Of a DNA stretch of 64,000 nt, positions 11,398 through 64,000 are shown piece after piece. The DNA is from Nocardia ninae NBRC 108245 (GTDB taxonomy: Bacteria > Actinomycetota > Actinomycetes > Mycobacteriales > Mycobacteriaceae), in NCBI RefSeq assembly GCF_007990755.1, contig NZ_BJXA01000037.1:16961-80960 (forward strand), read 5' to 3'. Each line of letters opens with the position of its first letter. Positions within the stretch are counted from its first letter, which is position 1. Position numbers and translations under genes: made by a program. The notes beneath the pieces are model-generated. The model had not been told where the DNA came from. It ran no database searches and worked only from the letters and a program-made list of their open reading frames with translations.

Positions 11398-11492
11398 GAT
11401 GCCGCATCCGCGCAAACGGTGACCGATCACGGTCCAGTGTCCGGCTGACCACACTGTGTGCACTGGGGCTCCGACAGTGGAAGACTCGAAGC

Positions 11493-11903
11493 ATGCAGCA
11501 GCACGGCGACTCCCCCGACGCCGGCGACATCGGCCGTGGTGAGCGTCCGGACGTGACGATGCCGCCGAAATCCTCCGGCTACTTCCCCGGCACCGACGAC
11601 AAGCATCCGGTCCTGATCACCGAGGCGCAGCCCTCGCTGGAAGACCAGCACCGCTCGCGCGTGCGTCGTTACACCATCATCATGGCGTTCCGCATCCCCT
11701 GCCTGGTGCTGGCCGCGATCGCCTACAGCACCTTCAGCAGCGCCCTGCTGTCGATCCTGATCATCGCGGTCTCCATCCCGCTCCCCTGGATCGCCGTCCT
11801 CATCGCCAACGACCGTCCGCCGCGTCGCAAAGACGAACCGAGCCGCTGGGACGAGCGCCGCGCCGCGCTGGAAGCCCGGCCGCACAACGCCATCGACAGC
11901 TGA
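11493..11903 (+). CDS. DUF3099 family membrane protein
   Basis: A 136-residue protein. Residues 1-50 are hydrophilic and contain the family motif PVLITEAQPSLEDQH (about residues 45-59). Two transmembrane segments follow: MAFRIPCLVLAAIAYSTF and LLSILIIAVSIPLPWIAVLI. A basic PPRRKDEP segment comes next. It corresponds to Rv2709, placed before sigB in mycobacteria. Function unknown. Confidence 0.85.
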   Translation: MQQHGDSPDAGDIGRGERPDVTMPPKSSGYFPGTDDKHPVLITEAQPSLEDQHRSRVRRYTIIMAFRIPCLVLAAIAYSTFSSALLSILIIAVSIPLPWIAVLIANDRPPRRKDEPSRWDERRAALEARPHNAIDS

Positions 11904-11918
11904 CGGTCCGCTGCCCCG

Positions 11919-13556
11919 TCAGGTGGTGATGCCGAGGTCGGTGCAGGCGCGGGCGCCGCTTTCGAGTGCGCCTTCGATCCAGGCTCGGCCTCGGGTGGAG
12001 GTGGCATCGCCTGCGAACGCGACCCGCCCGTCCATTTCGGGGGTGCGGGTGTCCGGGCCGATCTCGACCGATTGCCCGGGCAGGTAGATCGCGGCTTCAC
12101 CGTTTGCCCAGCGGTCGGTGGCCCAGGAGTGCGAGGCGTAGCCGCCGGTCCATGCGGCGCGGACGGCGGGGCCGTGCACGTCGGCGAGGTGATCGAGGCA
12201 TTCGGCCGCGCGTTCGGCCGGGAGCAGGCCGTCCCAGGCATGCGCGTCGTCGGCCCAGGTGTAGGAGGCGATGACGACGCCACCGTCGCCGGTGGGATGA
12301 GAGGGGTACACCGTCAGTCGTGGTGGGGCGTCGGTGACGTCGATGCCGCCGTGCCCGGCCCACCAGCGGGTGGAGAACTCGAGGAAGGTTTTGGTGGCGG
12401 CGTCGTGATGCAGCTCCGCGATCGCGCGTTGTTTGCCGTAGGACAGGGCCGGCTGGAAGCCGAGGTAACGCAGCAGCGAATACGGTGCCGCGACCACGAC
12501 GCGATCGACCTCCACGGTGTCCTCGCCCGCGCCGTACCTCAGCCGCACCCGCGGGTGTCGTCCGTCGATCCCGGTGACCACGGAGTTCGTGATGATCTCC
12601 GCGCCGGCGGCTTTCGCGGCACCGGCCAACTCGACGATCAACCGGTCGGTGCCGCCCACGATTTCGACCAGCTCGGTGCCGGGTGCGAGATTGGTGGCGG
12701 TCATCAGGTTGTGCGTCAGACTCAAACCCATGCGGGCGGTGATGCCCTCGATGGAGCCCAGATGGTCGATGCTCGATTCCGAAAGCCCCTGGGCCAGTAG
12801 CCAATCCCGCAGCGACATCTCGTCGTAGCGGGCCAGGAAGTCGGTCCAGGCTGCTACATCGCTGTCTCGGTGCACGCCCGTGCTCGCCAGCACCTGATCG
12901 AGCAGCGCGCGGCCGTGCACCGCCTCGGCACCGAACACCCCCGCGATCGGTGCCGGATCAGTGGTGTATTCGGCCCGGGTCATCGATACGCCACCGGCGC
13001 TGACCAATCGATGCGGGTGGGTCATGTGAAAGGGGCGGGTCTGTACACCCAACCGGGCCAGCACCCCGGTGGTGATCATGTGCGTGGTGGGGATGCGCAT
13101 CGCACCGGCCTCGCCGTGACCACCGGTGGCCGTGAAAGGTTCCCGCAGCGTCCGAATCCGGCCGCCCACCCGGTCCGAACCCTCGAATACCCGCACCCGA
13201 TGCCCCGCCCGCGCCAGGATCCACGCCGCGGCCAACCCGGCGGCACCGGCACCCACCACGGCGACATCCTGCGGGTTGTCCGTGCGCTTCGGGCCCGCGC
13301 CGGCAAGCAACTCCCGGTGCAGGGCCCGAACATCGCGACCGGACTCGTCCACACCCACGATGTCCCGGGCGACCAGCCGAGCCCGATCCCGCCGAGACGG
13401 TGAAATATCGGCACCCCCGGCCGCGGGCCGCAACGCCTCGCGGCCGGCGAAATGGCCGGAAGCAACCGCACCACCCGCCGCCCCCAACACCAGCCCGGCA
13501 GCACCGGCAGCGGTGTAACGCAACAGATCACGCCGACCAACGGTGTTCTCACGCAC
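11919..13556 (-). CDS. Flavin monoamine oxidase family protein, Tat-exported
   Basis: A 545-residue FAD amine oxidase. The N-terminus has a twin-arginine signal: GRRDLLRYTAAGAAGLVLG followed by a small-residue region. The FAD dinucleotide fold starts around residue 115 (VAVVGAGAAGLAAAWILARAGH), followed by the GG doublet motif DRVGGRIRTLREPF. The C-terminus has the second flavin motif VAFAGDATSTRGRAWIEGALESG. Actinobacterial relatives include exported L-amino-acid or monoamine oxidases. The GTG at 13556 is chosen because AAGGAG lies upstream and the Tat motif falls at the right distance. It sits next to a repeat array and shares no operon with neighbours. Substrate unknown. Confidence 0.85.
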   Translation of the reverse strand: MRENTVGRRDLLRYTAAGAAGLVLGAAGGAVASGHFAGREALRPAAGGADISPSRRDRARLVARDIVGVDESGRDVRALHRELLAGAGPKRTDNPQDVAVVGAGAAGLAAAWILARAGHRVRVFEGSDRVGGRIRTLREPFTATGGHGEAGAMRIPTTHMITTGVLARLGVQTRPFHMTHPHRLVSAGGVSMTRAEYTTDPAPIAGVFGAEAVHGRALLDQVLASTGVHRDSDVAAWTDFLARYDEMSLRDWLLAQGLSESSIDHLGSIEGITARMGLSLTHNLMTATNLAPGTELVEIVGGTDRLIVELAGAAKAAGAEIITNSVVTGIDGRHPRVRLRYGAGEDTVEVDRVVVAAPYSLLRYLGFQPALSYGKQRAIAELHHDAATKTFLEFSTRWWAGHGGIDVTDAPPRLTVYPSHPTGDGGVVIASYTWADDAHAWDGLLPAERAAECLDHLADVHGPAVRAAWTGGYASHSWATDRWANGEAAIYLPGQSVEIGPDTRTPEMDGRVAFAGDATSTRGRAWIEGALESGARACTDLGITT

Positions 13557-13791
13557 GATCCAGCTCCTTTGCTGCGATCCGGTCCACACCACCGGATCGA
13601 CCACGCGGCCGATCCGTGCTGATCGGGCCACCGACCCACCCTCAGCGCAGACACTGTGTCACACGTCACCGCCCCGATCCCGGCACCTGAGGTGTGTCGC
13701 CGCCGACCAGTCCCGTTCACCACCCCAACCGCCCCACAAGATCAACTTCCCGGCCCCGGTCCCCTCGCCGAGATCGTGAGACTGATCGGCG
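13557..13791. other. Non-coding stretch between amine oxidase and repeat array
   Basis: No credible gene is seen here. It contains the promoter region of the amine oxidase (minus strand) and leads directly into the repeat array. Open frames on the plus strand are rich in Pro/Arg/Thr and look like GC-rich noise. Confidence 0.5.
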
Positions 13792-14850
13792 TCAGGCCTT
13801 ACAGCGGATGAATGTGGACACACCACCACGGCACCGACCGAGCGGGACCGCCATCAAGTCCCTACTCGCAAATGCCATCAGCAGCGACGGGACACCACGA
13901 CGGCATTTACTGCGTGGAACCGCCACAACGTCCCACTCGCGAATCCCGGCCGTACCCAACGGGACACCACGGCGCCACCCATCGAAGACGGCCGCCACCA
14001 TGTCCCGCGCGCGAATCCCATCAGCAGCCAACGGGACAGCACAGCGGCATCCATCGAGCAGACCCGCCAACATGTCCCGCTCGCGAATCCCGGCCGTCCC
14101 AACGGGCCACCACGGCGGCACCCTCCGAACGGGGCCGCCACCATGTCCCGCGTGCAAGCGCCGTCCGTGCCCAACGGGAGACCAGCGCGGCATCCGCCGA
14201 GTGACACCTCCACCACGTCCCGTTCAGGCGCACCACCGTGACGGCGGGGACATGAGCGTGCGGCGTCAGGCCTTACGGCGGATGAAGGCAGACACCACGG
14301 CGCAGCCACGGAGTGGGACCGCCACCACGTCCCACCCGCGAATGCCATCAGCAGCCAACGGGACGCCACGGCGGCATCCATCGAGCAGACCCGCCAACAT
14401 GTCCCGTTCGCGAATCCCGTCCGTGCCCAACGGGACACCACGGCGGCATGCGCCGGGTGACGCCTCCACCAGGTCCCACCCGCAGATGCCGACCACGCCC
14501 AACGGGACACCAGGAGGGCATCCGCCGAGCGACGCCGCAGACATGTCCCGTTCGCGCGCAGCAGCAACGCTGGCGGGGACATGGCGGCGGGCGTCAGGCC
14601 CTACAGCGGATGAAGGCGGACACGGCGACACCGGCCGAGTGGAACCGCCACGACGTCCTATCCGCGAATGCCATCGGCGCCCAACGGAAGACAACGGCAT
14701 CACTCACCGCGTCGAGCCGCCACCAGGTCCCACCCGCGGATGCCGACCACGCCCAACGGGACACCAGGACGGCATCCGCCGAGCGACGCCACCGTCATGT
14801 CCCGTTCGCGCGCAGCGTCAACGCTGGAGGGGACATGGCGGCGGGCGTCA
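13792..14850. repeat. Nested 72-bp tandem repeat array with duplicated MFS gene 3' ends
   Basis: The anchor GTCC(C) recurs at 13858, 13930, 14002, 14074, 14145, 14217, then 14329, 14401, 14473, 14545, then 14655, 14727, 14799. The step is 72 bases (once 71), except two junction steps of 112 and 110 bases. Each junction carries a copy of the last codons of the neighbouring MFS gene, including its stop (minus-strand stop at 13792, 14266 and 14594; genuine stop at 14848). The array is therefore three blocks of 'MFS tail + n x 72 bp'. Each unit has an imperfect inverted repeat: CGGGACACCACGGCGGC pairs with GCCGCCACCATGTCCCG. Because 72 is divisible by 3, both strands stay open; the minus strand reads 24-residue repeats ending FIRRKA. 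No protein function is inferred. Confidence 0.85.
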
Positions 14851-16134
14851 GGCCTTGCGGCGGATGAAGGCGGACATTACGGCTGCCGTGGCGCATAACC
14901 CGCCGGCCAAGTACCAGGCGAGGTCGTAGGTGCCTTGGACATCGCGGATGACGCCCGCGCCGGTGGCGGCGATGGCGGAGCCGATCTGGTGGGAGGCGAA
15001 GACCCAGCCGAAGGCGACGGGGCCGTCGTTGCCGAACAGTTCACGGCAGAGCATGACGGTCGGTGGGACGGTGGCTACCCAGTCGAGGCCGTAGAAGATG
15101 ATGAACACCCAGAGGCTGGGTTGGGTGTGCGGGCCCAGCAGCGACGGCAGGATGAGCAGGGACAGGCCGCGCAGCACGTAGTAGCCGACCAGTAGATAGC
15201 GCGGATCGATGCGGTCGGTCAGCCAGCCGGACGCGATGGTGCCCGCCACGTCGAAGATGCCGACCACGGCGAGCAGGCTCGCGGCGGCGGTCGGCGGCAT
15301 GCCGTGGTCGTGCGCGGCGCTGACGAAATGGGTGCCGACGAGACCGTTGGTCGACGCGCCGCAGACCGCGAAACCACCTGCCAGCAGCCAGAATCCGGGT
15401 GTGCGCGCGATCTTGGCCAGCACCGTGAGCGCGCGGGACGCGCCGACCGAGGCCGGTGTGCGGACGCCGACGACACTGCCCGGTTCCGCGCCGTACGCGG
15501 TGACCCCGACATCACTCGGATAGTCCCTGATGAACAGCAACACCAGCGGCACGACGGCCAGCGCCGTCCCGGCGACGATCAGCGACGGCAGCCGCCAGCC
15601 GTGCTCGTGCGCCAGCATCGACACCAGCGGCAGGAACACCAGCTGACCGGTCGCACCCGCCGCCGTGAGCACCCCGGTGACCAGTCCGCGCTGGCGCACG
15701 AACCAGCGGCCGGTGATGGTCGCCACGAACGGCATCGACATCGACCCGACCCCGACACCCACCAGCAGACCCCAGGTCAGCATGAGATGCCACGGCTGGG
15801 TCATGAACACGGTGAGCCCCGCGCCCGCCGCGACGAGCACCAGCGCCCCCGACACCACCTTGCGGATGCCGAACCGGTCCATCAGCGCCGCCGCGAACGG
15901 CGAAATCAACCCGTACAACAGCAGATTCAGCGAGACCGCCGCACCGATCGTGCCGTGCGACCAGCCGAACTCCGCGTGCAGCGGATCCATCAGCACACTG
16001 GGCACCGAGCGGAACGCGGCCGCACCGAGCAGCGCGACGAAGCCGACCCCCGCCACGATCCACGCCGGATGCGGACCGCGCCGGGCGACGGTGTCGTGCA
16101 ACGGTACTGGCGGTGGTGTCTGCAGCTCGGTCAC
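14848..16134 (-). CDS. Major facilitator superfamily transporter
   Basis: A 428-residue MFS permease with 12 hydrophobic segments in two sets of six. Loop 2-3 carries the MFS motif variant ALMDRFGIRKVV, and the second half has the equivalent GWLTDRIDPRYLL. The gene resembles the oxalate/formate-type or monocarboxylate MFS carriers (YbfB/OxlT-like), but the substrate cannot be given. The GTG at 16134 matches the start of similarity (VTELQTPPPVPLHD); no strong ribosome site is seen there. The final residues MSAFIRRKA are duplicated three times downstream in the 72-bp repeat array. Confidence 0.82.
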   Translation of the reverse strand: MTELQTPPPVPLHDTVARRGPHPAWIVAGVGFVALLGAAAFRSVPSVLMDPLHAEFGWSHGTIGAAVSLNLLLYGLISPFAAALMDRFGIRKVVSGALVLVAAGAGLTVFMTQPWHLMLTWGLLVGVGVGSMSMPFVATITGRWFVRQRGLVTGVLTAAGATGQLVFLPLVSMLAHEHGWRLPSLIVAGTALAVVPLVLLFIRDYPSDVGVTAYGAEPGSVVGVRTPASVGASRALTVLAKIARTPGFWLLAGGFAVCGASTNGLVGTHFVSAAHDHGMPPTAAASLLAVVGIFDVAGTIASGWLTDRIDPRYLLVGYYVLRGLSLLILPSLLGPHTQPSLWVFIIFYGLDWVATVPPTVMLCRELFGNDGPVAFGWVFASHQIGSAIAATGAGVIRDVQGTYDLAWYLAGGLCATAAVMSAFIRRKA

Positions 16135-16284
16135 CCGCTGAGCGTGCCGGAAATTCGGCCGCGCAACGAGCAGCCGGAAGGCCACAAAACACCAAGATCG
16201 TGCCAGGAACGGCGACACGCCAATCCGCTCGACACCGCGCGTCGCTTTCCCTATGGTGTCTGCGGGCACAAGACAGGAGTGAAC

Positions 16285-38883: not shown

Positions 38884-39011
38884 GTAGGTCGCGGGCGCCC
38901 CTCCTGGTTCAGAGCCGCACCCTAAGTCGCAGCCGCCCTGCTAAGTCCCAGCCGCCCTCCTAAGTCGCAGCCGCCCTCCAGGTCTCAGCCGGGCCTCCTA
39001 GGTCGGGGGCG
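38884..39011. repeat. 19-bp tandem repeat tract
   Basis: The unit CTAAGTCGCAGCCGCCCTC occurs at 38922, 38941, 38960 (one or two changes) and degenerates at 38979 and 38998. Two weaker copies precede it from 38884. It lies in the gap between the GGCT gene promoter and the end of oxyR. No function known. Confidence 0.7.
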
Positions 39012-59521: not shown

Positions 59522-61516
59522 GTGACCGTGATCAGCGCCGAACCGGCCCTGCCCGAGGCAACCGCCACCGCAGCGGCCTTCCCCCCGGCTCGCCGCTGGG
59601 AGCGGGCCGGACTCGCCGCGCTGCTGATCGGTACGGCGGTCGCGTATCTCTGGCACATCACCGTCAACGGCATGGGCAACAACTTCTACGCCGCGGCGAC
59701 GTGGGCCGGTTCACGGAGCTGGAAGGCGCTGCTGTTCGGCTCGCTCGATCCGAGCAACTTCATCACCGTCGACAAGCCGCCGGTATCCCAATGGGTGATG
59801 GGGTTGTCCGGGCAGCTGTTCGGGTTCAGCAGTGCCAGCATGCTGGTCCCGCAGGCGTTGATGGCGGTCGCCGCGGTCTGGTTGCTGTACGCGGCCGTGG
59901 CCCGCGCCACCGGCAGCCGGGGCACCGGGCTGCTCGCCGGGGCGGTGCTGGCATCGACCCCGGTGGTGGCGTTGATGTTCCGGTTCAACAATCCCGACGC
60001 CGTGATGGTCCTGCTGATGACCGCGGGCGCCTACTGCACGATCAGGGCGCTGGAGCGGGCGAGCGCACGCTGGCTGGCATCGGCCGGTGTCGCGCTCGGA
60101 TTCGCGTTCCTGGCCAAGATGCTCGAAGGGTTGATGGTGCTGCCCGCGCTGGGTGTCGCCTACCTTCTTGTTGCGCCCACGACGCTGCGCAATCGGTTGT
60201 GGCACTTGACCGGCGCCGCCGTCGCGCTGATCATCTCATCCGGCTGGTACGTGGTGCTGACCATGCTGTGGCCCGCTTCGTCGCGGCCCTACCTCGCCGG
60301 GTCGACGAACAACACGTTCATGGATCTGGTGCTCGGTTACAACGGATTCGCGCGCTTCCTCGGCCAGAATCACAAGGGCGGCAATCTCTTCGAGCTGCCG
60401 CCCGGTTACGAGATGCCACACGACCTCGGGGCAGGCTTCGGCGGCTTCGGCGGATCGGGACCGTCGAGGCTGTTCACCGGTGAGATCGGATTCGAGATCT
60501 CCTGGCTGCTGCCCGCGGCGCTGCTGGCCTTCGGGATTGTGCTGGCGTCACGCTGGCGGGTGCCGCGCACCGATCTGATACGCGGCGCGGCAATGGTTTT
60601 CGGACTGTGGCTGATTATCGATGGGATCGCGTTCACCACCATGCGGGGTGGCATGCACGCTTACTACACCTTGGCCATCGGGCCTGCCGTCGCGGCGATG
60701 TTCGCGCTCGGTGTCCACGAAGCTTGGCGGCGGCGCGACGAGCTTTTCGGCCGAATTGCCGCTGCCGCATTGGTTCTGGCTACGGCTGGGTGGTCTTTCG
60801 TTCTGCTGCAACGTAACTCCGAGTGGCTGCCTTGGCTGCGCTGGACCCTGCTCACCGTGGCATTGCTCGCCGCGCTCGGGCTGCTGGCCGGTGCCTTCCC
60901 CGCCGTATCGCATCGGCTGCGCACTCGGACCACCTCGGTGCTGGTGATCGTGGGCGTGCTGGCCGGACTCGGCGGTTCCACCGCCTACGCAGCGGCCACC
61001 CTGCCGCAAGCGCATGTAGGCGGCAGCCCGACCGTCGGGCCCGCCGAACCCGAAAAGAACAGCCCCGCAAACGAAGTCCGCCGGGCCGTCACCGCATTCC
61101 TGGACGGCTCGACCGAACCGCAGGTCGTCGAACTGCTTCGGAATACTACGACCACCTGGTCGGCAGCTGTCGATCGATCCTCGACCGCCGCGAGCCTGGA
61201 GCTGGCCAGTCGTACCCCCGTGATCGCCATCGGCGGCTTCACCTCCGACGACCCGGTGCCCACCCTCCCCGACTTCGAGCATTTGGTCAGCGCCCACCAG
61301 GTCACGTACTACCTCTCACAGGAAGTGAAGTTGCCCGACGCCTGGAAAGTCGCCGATCAGCCGGGAATCATCCCCGAACCGGACCAGCCGCACACCGGCA
61401 ACGGCCTGTGGCGACCATCCGGAAACAAGGACATCGCGGAGTGGGTCGCCGCCCATTACACCCCCGTCCACTTCGGCAACGTAGCTGTCTACGACCTGAC
61501 GGCACCGCCGCGCTGA
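59522..61516 (+). CDS. GT39-like membrane glycosyltransferase (ArnT/mannosyltransferase family)
   Basis: A 664-residue polytopic protein with about 11-12 transmembrane helices in the first 490 residues. The family motif is near residue 85 (NFITVDKPPVSQWVMGLSGQLF), where the Asp is catalytic, as in PMT/ArnT enzymes that use polyprenyl-phosphate sugars. The C-terminal soluble part (about 510-664) is probably extracytoplasmic. In mycobacteria such enzymes add mannose or arabinose to lipids and proteins. GTG at 59522 is the likely start; the ribosome site is weak. A palindromic repeat hairpin follows the stop. Confidence 0.85.
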   Translation: MTVISAEPALPEATATAAAFPPARRWERAGLAALLIGTAVAYLWHITVNGMGNNFYAAATWAGSRSWKALLFGSLDPSNFITVDKPPVSQWVMGLSGQLFGFSSASMLVPQALMAVAAVWLLYAAVARATGSRGTGLLAGAVLASTPVVALMFRFNNPDAVMVLLMTAGAYCTIRALERASARWLASAGVALGFAFLAKMLEGLMVLPALGVAYLLVAPTTLRNRLWHLTGAAVALIISSGWYVVLTMLWPASSRPYLAGSTNNTFMDLVLGYNGFARFLGQNHKGGNLFELPPGYEMPHDLGAGFGGFGGSGPSRLFTGEIGFEISWLLPAALLAFGIVLASRWRVPRTDLIRGAAMVFGLWLIIDGIAFTTMRGGMHAYYTLAIGPAVAAMFALGVHEAWRRRDELFGRIAAAALVLATAGWSFVLLQRNSEWLPWLRWTLLTVALLAALGLLAGAFPAVSHRLRTRTTSVLVIVGVLAGLGGSTAYAAATLPQAHVGGSPTVGPAEPEKNSPANEVRRAVTAFLDGSTEPQVVELLRNTTTTWSAAVDRSSTAASLELASRTPVIAIGGFTSDDPVPTLPDFEHLVSAHQVTYYLSQEVKLPDAWKVADQPGIIPEPDQPHTGNGLWRPSGNKDIAEWVAAHYTPVHFGNVAVYDLTAPPR

Positions 61517-61520
61517 CGGT

Positions 61521-61587
61521 CATGATCGACGGGACATAGCGGCGGCACAGTGCGAGTAGGGCCGCCGTCATGTCCCGGTCGATCATG
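61521..61587. repeat. Palindromic repeat hairpin related to the 72-bp array
   Basis: The arms CATGATCGACGGGACATAGC (61521-61540, continuing GGCGGC to 61546) and the complement at 61561-61587 enclose a 14-base loop; the two arms differ by one insertion and a two-base change. The core CGGGACAT..GGCGGC and its complement are the same as in the 13.8-14.8 kb array. It lies 5 bases after the glycosyltransferase stop and could also work as a terminator. Confidence 0.8.
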
Positions 61588-63872: not shown

Positions 63873-63937
63873 GCCATCGGCGGGCTGCAGAGTGCCCATG
63901 CGGCGTTCACCTCCATGCTGTCCCGGTCGGTGCTCGA

Positions 63938-64000
63938 TGCCCGGTGCCCGGTGCCCGGTGCCCGGTGCCCGGTGCCCGGTGCCCGGTGCCCGGTGCCCGG
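63938..64000. repeat. Heptamer tandem repeat (TGCCCGG), cut by window end
   Basis: Nine exact copies of TGCCCGG run from 63938 to the end of the window; the true length is unknown. It lies 66 bases after the monooxygenase stop. Confidence 0.9.

Follow-up and report, generated by a model that had tools for sequence, protein, structure and literature searches.

The window, that is, the whole stretch of 64,000 nucleotides analysed here, comes from the genome of Nocardia ninae NBRC 108245 (G000 in what follows, with G127 as its close relative). Its minus strand carries an MFS transporter gene (14848..16143; Pfam MFS_1, 7e-39) whose stop codon is at 14848 and whose last 30 bases (14848-14877, minus strand) encode the protein end MSAFIRRKA. 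Behind this stop codon, on the same strand, lies an array of three blocks, and between the array and a DUF3099 gene there is a flavin amine oxidase gene (11922..13631, minus strand; Pfam Amino_oxidase, 6e-61). Block 1 (14594..14847) begins with half a core directly 3' of the MFS stop and continues with two cores of 48 bp (14757-14804 and 14685-14732), a degenerate remainder and a copy of the MFS gene end (14594-14623). Block 2 (14266..14593) is built likewise from three cores (14503-14550, 14431-14478 and 14359-14406), a degenerate remainder and a tail copy (14266-14295), and block 3 (13792..14265) from five cores (14175-14222, 14103-14150, 14032-14079, 13960-14007 and 13888-13935), again with a degenerate remainder and a final tail copy (13792-13821). 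TRF assigns to 13820-14790 a period of 72, together with periods of 143-144 and a higher-order one of 328. Two further tandem repeats are present elsewhere in the window, a 7-bp repeat CGGTGCC in 10.4 copies (63928-64000) and a 19-bp repeat in 4.9 copies (38913-39005).

The cores were located with a position matrix trained on 29 array units from three genomes (G000, G041 and G009). At 17 bits or more it finds 2, 3 and 5 cores in the three blocks, 10 in total, and one further core in the window at 61530-61577; a shuffled copy of the window gave none at 14 bits or more. A sequence-only reading of this DNA had described three tail-plus-unit blocks of 2, 3 and about 5 units, each unit with the imperfect inverted repeat CGGGACA...GGCGGC/GCCGCC...TGTCCCG, and both descriptions hold; the core as a whole reads CGGGACATG.CGGCG..ACTCG..CGCC..CATGTCCCG. 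The same reading derived the tails from the MFS gene end. Indeed, the three copies match the original at 26/30 (14594-14623), 27/30 (14266-14295) and 25/30 (13792-13821) positions, while no gapless match in 200 shuffled versions of the region exceeded 20/30, and the end is native to the orthologous genes (see below). Long open frames cross the array, one of 411 aa on the plus strand and others of 234, 145 and 133 aa on the minus strand.

Folded as RNA, two units of the array gave z scores of -1.68 and -2.65 and longer stretches -2.75 and -1.50. No terminator-like site was seen in the array, and Rfam returned one match there, of 19.1 bits, below its gathering score of 37. The remaining core of the window is part of a complete family member that stands alone, a 64-nt hairpin (61522..61585, minus strand; 56.9 bits with the position matrix). 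It is located some 5 nt past the stop codon of a mannosyltransferase-like gene (TGA at 61514-61516) and faces a convergent TetR-type gene (both by Pfam). Its minimum free energy is -41.1 kcal/mol, with z scores of -8.1 and -5.8 on the two strands, and Rfam gave three sub-threshold matches, the best at 26.1 against 92.

Members of this family are dispersed through the genome. A BLAST search with the MFS array placed the best 40 of 156 candidates at 20 places of the host genome, among them the 3' sides of ispH, tuf and polA (gene names by Pfam), so that other loci also contain the unit. The alternation TGTCCCG -31 bp- CGGGACA -41 bp- was at least partially present in all ten regions inspected, with one complete step in the polA array. 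The exact pair GTCCCG-N24-CGGGAC occurs 58 times in the host genome against 2 for the reversed control, and 72 times against 5 in G127; with any gap from 11 to 38 the figures are 134 against 46, so that the gap of 24 carries most of the excess. When one mismatch is allowed, counts exceed the control in G000 (209/96), G127 (237/104) and G041 (240/114), and do not in G067 (78/90), G131 (98/176), G009 (86/82) and G118 (55/87). An apparent excess of GTCCCG pairs in G131 was considered as the same family and turned out to be a different palindrome of 25 bp, GTCCCGGC(A/G)(C/T)GCTTTTGGCCGGGAC, dispersed in at least 12 copies over the first 1.1 Mb of contig C1 of that genome. Twelve other Nocardia genomes gave matches of 28-34 bp (query positions 708-741), which were discarded as coincidental, since all 12 fall inside one conserved 344-aa ORF, probably that of aspartate-semialdehyde dehydrogenase.

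The phylogenetic distribution was followed with a sequence-only core model, R1, built on 29 cores, one per array. Among 148 Nocardia genomes, six (G000, G127, G041, G067, G009 and G108) contain at least 41 matches each, and at an E value of 0.05 87 of the 148 have a match, in many cases no more than one weak one. Of 301 genomes sampled from the host's taxonomic family, evidently drawn without the other five rich Nocardia genomes, five match at an E value of 0.001: the host's own and four weak ones, two of them Nocardia and two with single matches in other genera. The array as query had no matches in plasmid and phage collections. By their titles and the first part of their abstracts, the papers found on repeats, MITEs or terminators in Nocardia or Actinobacteria include no description of this hairpin family. 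Two observations concern the places occupied. On contig C1 of G127, where dnaA is at 0.41 Mb, the exact pair sites listed start 2.2 Mb clockwise of it, and 1.65, 2.29 and 8.92 Mb are the closest positions among the core matches listed; within these listings the family is possibly enriched away from the origin. In the host genome, the locus L120 (G000:C53:33000-40500) contains two blocks of 72-bp units surrounded by a long stretch of degenerate repeats, in which both strands have open frames.

The solitary members, hairpins of 64-66 nt found as lone elements in G067 and in several places of other genomes, provide the clearest picture of what the family conserves. Eight solitary entries, representing seven elements, fold at -31 to -50 kcal/mol with z scores from -3.0 to -8.6. 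In a gapless alignment of 28 of them over 64 columns (A3; 27 of 29 loci, with L170 and L202 omitted, plus the window copy), 15 of 24 mirrored pairs have changed on both sides, against 12.0 in shuffles that leave the relatedness of the copies in place, a value reached by 10 of 500. The same alignment contains 56 double-changed cells, against 33.6+-4.4 in the shuffles (none of 500 reached it) and 11-21 when the partners are slid; pair types are less striking, with 36 of them against 33.0 in the shuffles, 60 of 500 of which reached this number. The pairs 2-63, 5-60, 6-59 and 8-57 covary and lie outside the 48 columns by which copies were found. Part of the signal is explained by the existence of two flavours of flank, ATGATCAA..TTGATCAT and CGAR..YTCG. 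Over all 30 solitary elements, the position pair at -3 is complementary in 27 of 30, against 15.0+-2.7, and that at -4 in 22, against 18.3+-1.3. The solitary hairpin thus carries compensatory changes. The orthologous elements L206 and L219 were excluded from the solitary sets used for target duplications, alignment loci and T content, and included in the count of gene positions.

The arrays show a different regularity, namely their register. Among 194 neighbouring cores at distances of 63-103 bp, 148 are exactly 72 bp apart, 13 are at 71 and 6 at 73, a count of all neighbours within the collected stretches in which orthologous loci of the species entered separately and whose rates are biased upwards, as the loci were gathered partly through the motifs. 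The consensus cores of 23 arrays of the host's own genome agree over the central 34 columns with a mean identity of 0.619, against 0.335 when shuffled. In turn, the linker interiors of 25 arrays reach 0.384, against 0.348+-0.006 for shuffled letters, with 4 of 300 pairs above 0.7. Linkers are related within one array and nearly unrelated between arrays; in a CRISPR-like structure the spacers would differ inside an array. Most arrays are arranged head-to-tail. Clearly opposite cores 72 bp apart occur in L197 and L222, and the orientation of the cores in L208 and part of L220 is ambiguous owing to the near-palindromic nature of the core.

Base pairing in the arrays is looser than in the solitary copies. 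Over all arrays there are 4 double-changed cells, against 12.2 in shuffles, and among 28 mirrored pairs in 299 array cores, four lie more than 2.5 sd above the shuffles and five equally far below. The model alignment (A2) comprises 29 of the 30 listed units, L120 being omitted and L001 and L122 turned by hand. We read the arrays as amplified copies that have lost strict pairing. Copy number also differs between species, which the sequence-only reading had named as support for an expansion-prone family. Of 23 pairs of orthologous loci, 21 have flanks that match on either side; in 15 of these 21 the host genome and G127 contain unequal numbers of cores, such as 14 versus 4 or 3 versus 11, and in 6 the numbers are equal. 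This comparison is to be read knowing that G000 is a short-read assembly of 204 contigs in which arrays may be shortened, and that the 9.1-Mb contig of G127 makes assembly artefacts less likely in the arrays of the latter.

Regarding the genes around them, our own calls, based on the GC pattern and uncurated, are crude, and within them no cluster lies inside a called gene at a tolerance of 40-45 bp. Of 116 clusters, 59 have a called gene within 700 bp on each side: 25 are between convergent genes, 29 between tandem genes and 5 between divergent ones, counting orthologues of G127 and of the host genome apart; the other 57 have distant neighbours (37) or lie at the end of a stretch (20). In 19 of the 29 tandem cases it is the 3' end of a gene that is nearer. 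Solitary elements taken alone are convergent in 9 cases, tandem in 18, divergent in 4 and undetermined in 4. In G067, 11 of 19 have a core edge at most 30 bp from the upstream stop, one of them overlapping it, again with crude gene calls; outside G067 this holds for 3 of 16, so that a position near stop codons is marked in G067 only. The most likely role is one at the 3' ends of genes, where the hairpin would act in both directions by ending transcripts, stabilising the 3' side of RNA or forming a barrier to read-through. The more specific proposal of a terminator array found no U-tract in its favour: behind 29 solitary elements T is not enriched (0.204 and 0.184, against 0.185).

The history of the MFS locus can be partly reconstructed by comparison. 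In 32 orthologues from named Nocardia species, the transporter ends in S-x-x-[IVL]-R in 28 and in MSAxIRR in 8, followed by a variable tail, and the stretches around these 32 genes contain no 48-bp core at 20 bits. In G041 the MFS gene ends in the same way, and the array behind it lacks tail copies. The opposite derivation, of the gene end from the repeat, was rejected in view of the end shared among 28 of 32 orthologues, the core-free stretches around these genes and its full presence in G041 next to a tail-free array. Gene order in G041 and G067 is MFS, units, DUF3099, with no amine oxidase in between; in G127 (MFS gene at 99.5% identity) the amine oxidase gene has an array on either side, the first following MFS and the second preceding DUF3099. 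The window differs from G127 by having just the first of these arrays, with amine oxidase next to DUF3099. From the tail-free array of G041 and these gene orders it follows that the array is older than the capture of the tail, and that the amine oxidase gene took its place within or beside the array. The region around this gene (11463-13631 in the window; L117, L131 and L091) is continuous in G041 and G067. The second array of G127, behind the amine oxidase gene, was considered as a new dispersal and is better read as part of a split array, the units of G041 and G067 lying directly between MFS and DUF3099. It had been suggested that the expansion started inside the gene end; the tail-free units behind MFS in G041 and G067 and the dispersal of the family indicate instead that the element came first.

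The gene end is in register with the array, since a TGTCC within the MFS gene stands 41 bp before the first TGTCCC past the stop, itself 31 bp before CGGGACA, and these are the spacings of the family. Furthermore, the arrays behind ispH, in both the host genome and G127, carry tail copies together with the hybrid junction that follows the MFS stop, and the ispH loci of G041 and G067 contain no core at 12 bits or more in stretches of 4 kb. When 110 stretches with arrays or elements (the window's own MFS array being excluded) were scored for the MFS tail, the arrays of the MFS and amine oxidase locus of G127 gave 58 and 40 and those of ispH 37 and 32; the next best was 27 and the median 18. Taken alone, the 30-base tail at ispH is modest, with 29 against a maximum of 28 in 200 shuffles in the host genome and 24 against 25 in G127. 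Resemblance to the MFS array is also seen in the units on the 3' side of tuf (83% over 133 bp) and in those of contig C53 (79% over 159 bp), which contain no tail. That the array captured the MFS end and that this end was re-founded at ispH is strongly indicated. The same tail at ispH and the absence of the ispH array from G041 and G067 make seeding by the MFS array the most likely origin, in an order of events that leans on these two outgroup genomes. At ispH (L002, 1300-2400) the 72-bp units are in addition flanked on either side by another repeat, CGGCGCTGAGCTGCGGCGGACCATC-like and some 24 bp long.

Bringing these lines together, we hold, with slightly better than even confidence, that the array behind the MFS gene is an amplified copy of a dispersed palindromic Nocardia family, likely a 3'-end element, which captured the MFS tail and was re-founded behind ispH. 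The ancestral unit would be a solitary palindromic intergenic element of 64-66 bp, able to form a long hairpin. At some loci it would have been multiplied at a step of 72 bp (a 48-bp core plus a 24-bp linker). The most likely cause is that cores exchanged unequally or slipped against one another, in agreement with the earlier suggestion of such an expansion; thereafter copy number would drift and strict pairing decay. An exchange at the shared TGTCC would have joined the last 30 bases of MFS to the array, later duplications would have copied tail and units together, and a tail-bearing piece would have been copied behind ispH, founding a new array, before the window's species and G127 diverged, for which ectopic recombination may suffice. 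Unequal exchange in register would be the engine of amplification. Against this scheme, an exact step of 72 bp combined with nearly unrelated linkers is more than slippage alone explains.

The conservation of distances would also be expected of a protein-binding array, in which alternating inverted half-sites CGGGACA-N4-GGCG, at distances of 31 and 41 bp (some 3 and 4 helical turns), bind a putative multimeric protein that serves chromosome organisation or acts as a transcription roadblock. In the stretches of four genomes, exact 6-mers whose starts differ by 30 bp number 126, compared with 13 for 29 or 31, and those differing by 42 bp number 105, compared with 17 for 41 or 43, despite the near-random linker interiors between arrays, and the arrays show no overall covariation. 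Nevertheless, the solitary elements covary, also outside the motif, which a binding site does not need, and some single array pairs, such as the B pair 13-34, exceed chance; we regard this reading as unlikely. A somewhat stronger possibility, which we still consider improbable on balance, is a neutral or selfish palindrome spread by recombination and replication errors, its intergenic places being those where insertions are tolerated. It accords with the changes of copy number at 15 of the 21 orthologous loci, the concentration of copies (at least 41) in 6 of 148 Nocardia genomes, the ectopic founding at ispH and the scarcity of clusters between divergent genes and absence from called ones; the conservation of the core in 23 arrays and the covariation of solitary copies point, however, to constraint or active homogenisation.

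Fixed-length linkers, related within an array and nearly unrelated between arrays, together with long terminal inverted repeats, could be taken as the marks of a MITE-like element mobilised by a transposase in trans, inserting next to itself and leaving the linker as a target duplication of fixed length. This we find very doubtful: 30 true solitary elements gave no clear target duplication over 50 combinations of end and length (five ends, 2-24 bp), the largest deviations being 0.29 at 6 bp, where 0.23+-0.02 was the reference, and 0.30 at 24 bp, where it was 0.27+-0.01, and a 24-bp signal in a larger set of 44 supposed solitary copies was due to the array members included in it. Moreover, the Y1 transposase domain PF01797 was found in none of the six Nocardia genomes searched and in 5 of 14 controls, and the array DNA has no plasmid or phage matches. 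Finally, a repeat encoding units of 24 residues, or an extension of the MFS protein, would explain why 72 is a multiple of three and why frames are open on both strands. Spacings of 70, 71 and 73 bp within the family, stop codons in the tail copies, the lack of any cluster in a called gene and the hairpin covariation of the solitary elements make it scarcely credible, and the open frames do not resemble a conserved coding repeat.

The end of the MFS gene, stop codon included, is a natural tag marking the array that founded a second one, and the two outgroups give the direction; linkers may likewise reveal the ancestry of other arrays, such as the MFS-type units near tuf. If the solitary hairpins end transcripts, the family would also illustrate the multiplication and rewiring of gene 3' ends within a group of Actinobacteria. 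More tentatively, and we would not expect it to prove right, this Nocardia clade might have hairpins that spread by themselves with no transposase of their own, copying of array segments between distant loci that carries host gene pieces along, fixed-length linkers serving as bar codes of array ancestry, and a putative protein that keeps the array in helical phase, whence the 72-bp register, and has a part in its copying.

Among known systems, 3' transduction by retroelements carries flanking sequence to a new site, and here too a flanking piece of a gene was moved and tags its source, with the difference that no reverse transcriptase is implicated. MIRU and other mycobacterial minisatellites are intergenic tandem units adjacent to stop codons and variable in copy number. 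The Nocardia array shares the intergenic tandem arrangement, a similar unit size, the vicinity of stop codons and a related genus as host, whereas its unit is a palindromic hairpin, which sets it apart from MIRU, and R1 gives just two single weak matches in two other genera of the host's family. To intrinsic terminators and the TRIT model the resemblance lies in a hairpin that is, in part of the cases, close behind stop codons and could be used in two ways between convergent genes. It differs by having no U-tract and by being one sequence family that amplifies and moves. The TRIT model of Mycobacterium tuberculosis is named in PMC3526491. Of the options offered by the sequence-only reading, a REP/BIME-like cluster fits best: the family works like REP/BIME, and the missing Y1/RAYT gene keeps it from being classified as a RAYT-borne REP. 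REP and BIME of enterobacteria and pseudomonads are short palindromes scattered over extragenic sites. They form clusters joined by short linkers, seldom lie between divergent genes, are associated with the RAYT (Y1) transposase, alternate in orientation within clusters and bear a conserved tetranucleotide foot by the palindrome. The spread of REP-like hairpins independently of a RAYT transposase is, to our knowledge, an open question. The Nocardia family has in common with them short, dispersed extragenic palindromes in many copies and variable number, their grouping with short linkers and their scarcity between divergent genes, and its flanks come in at least two flavours; unlike them, it goes without RAYT/Y1 (PF01797 in 0/6 genomes), its palindrome is longer, at 64-66 nt, and its arrays run mostly head-to-tail at a 72-bp step with linkers nearly unrelated from one array to another.
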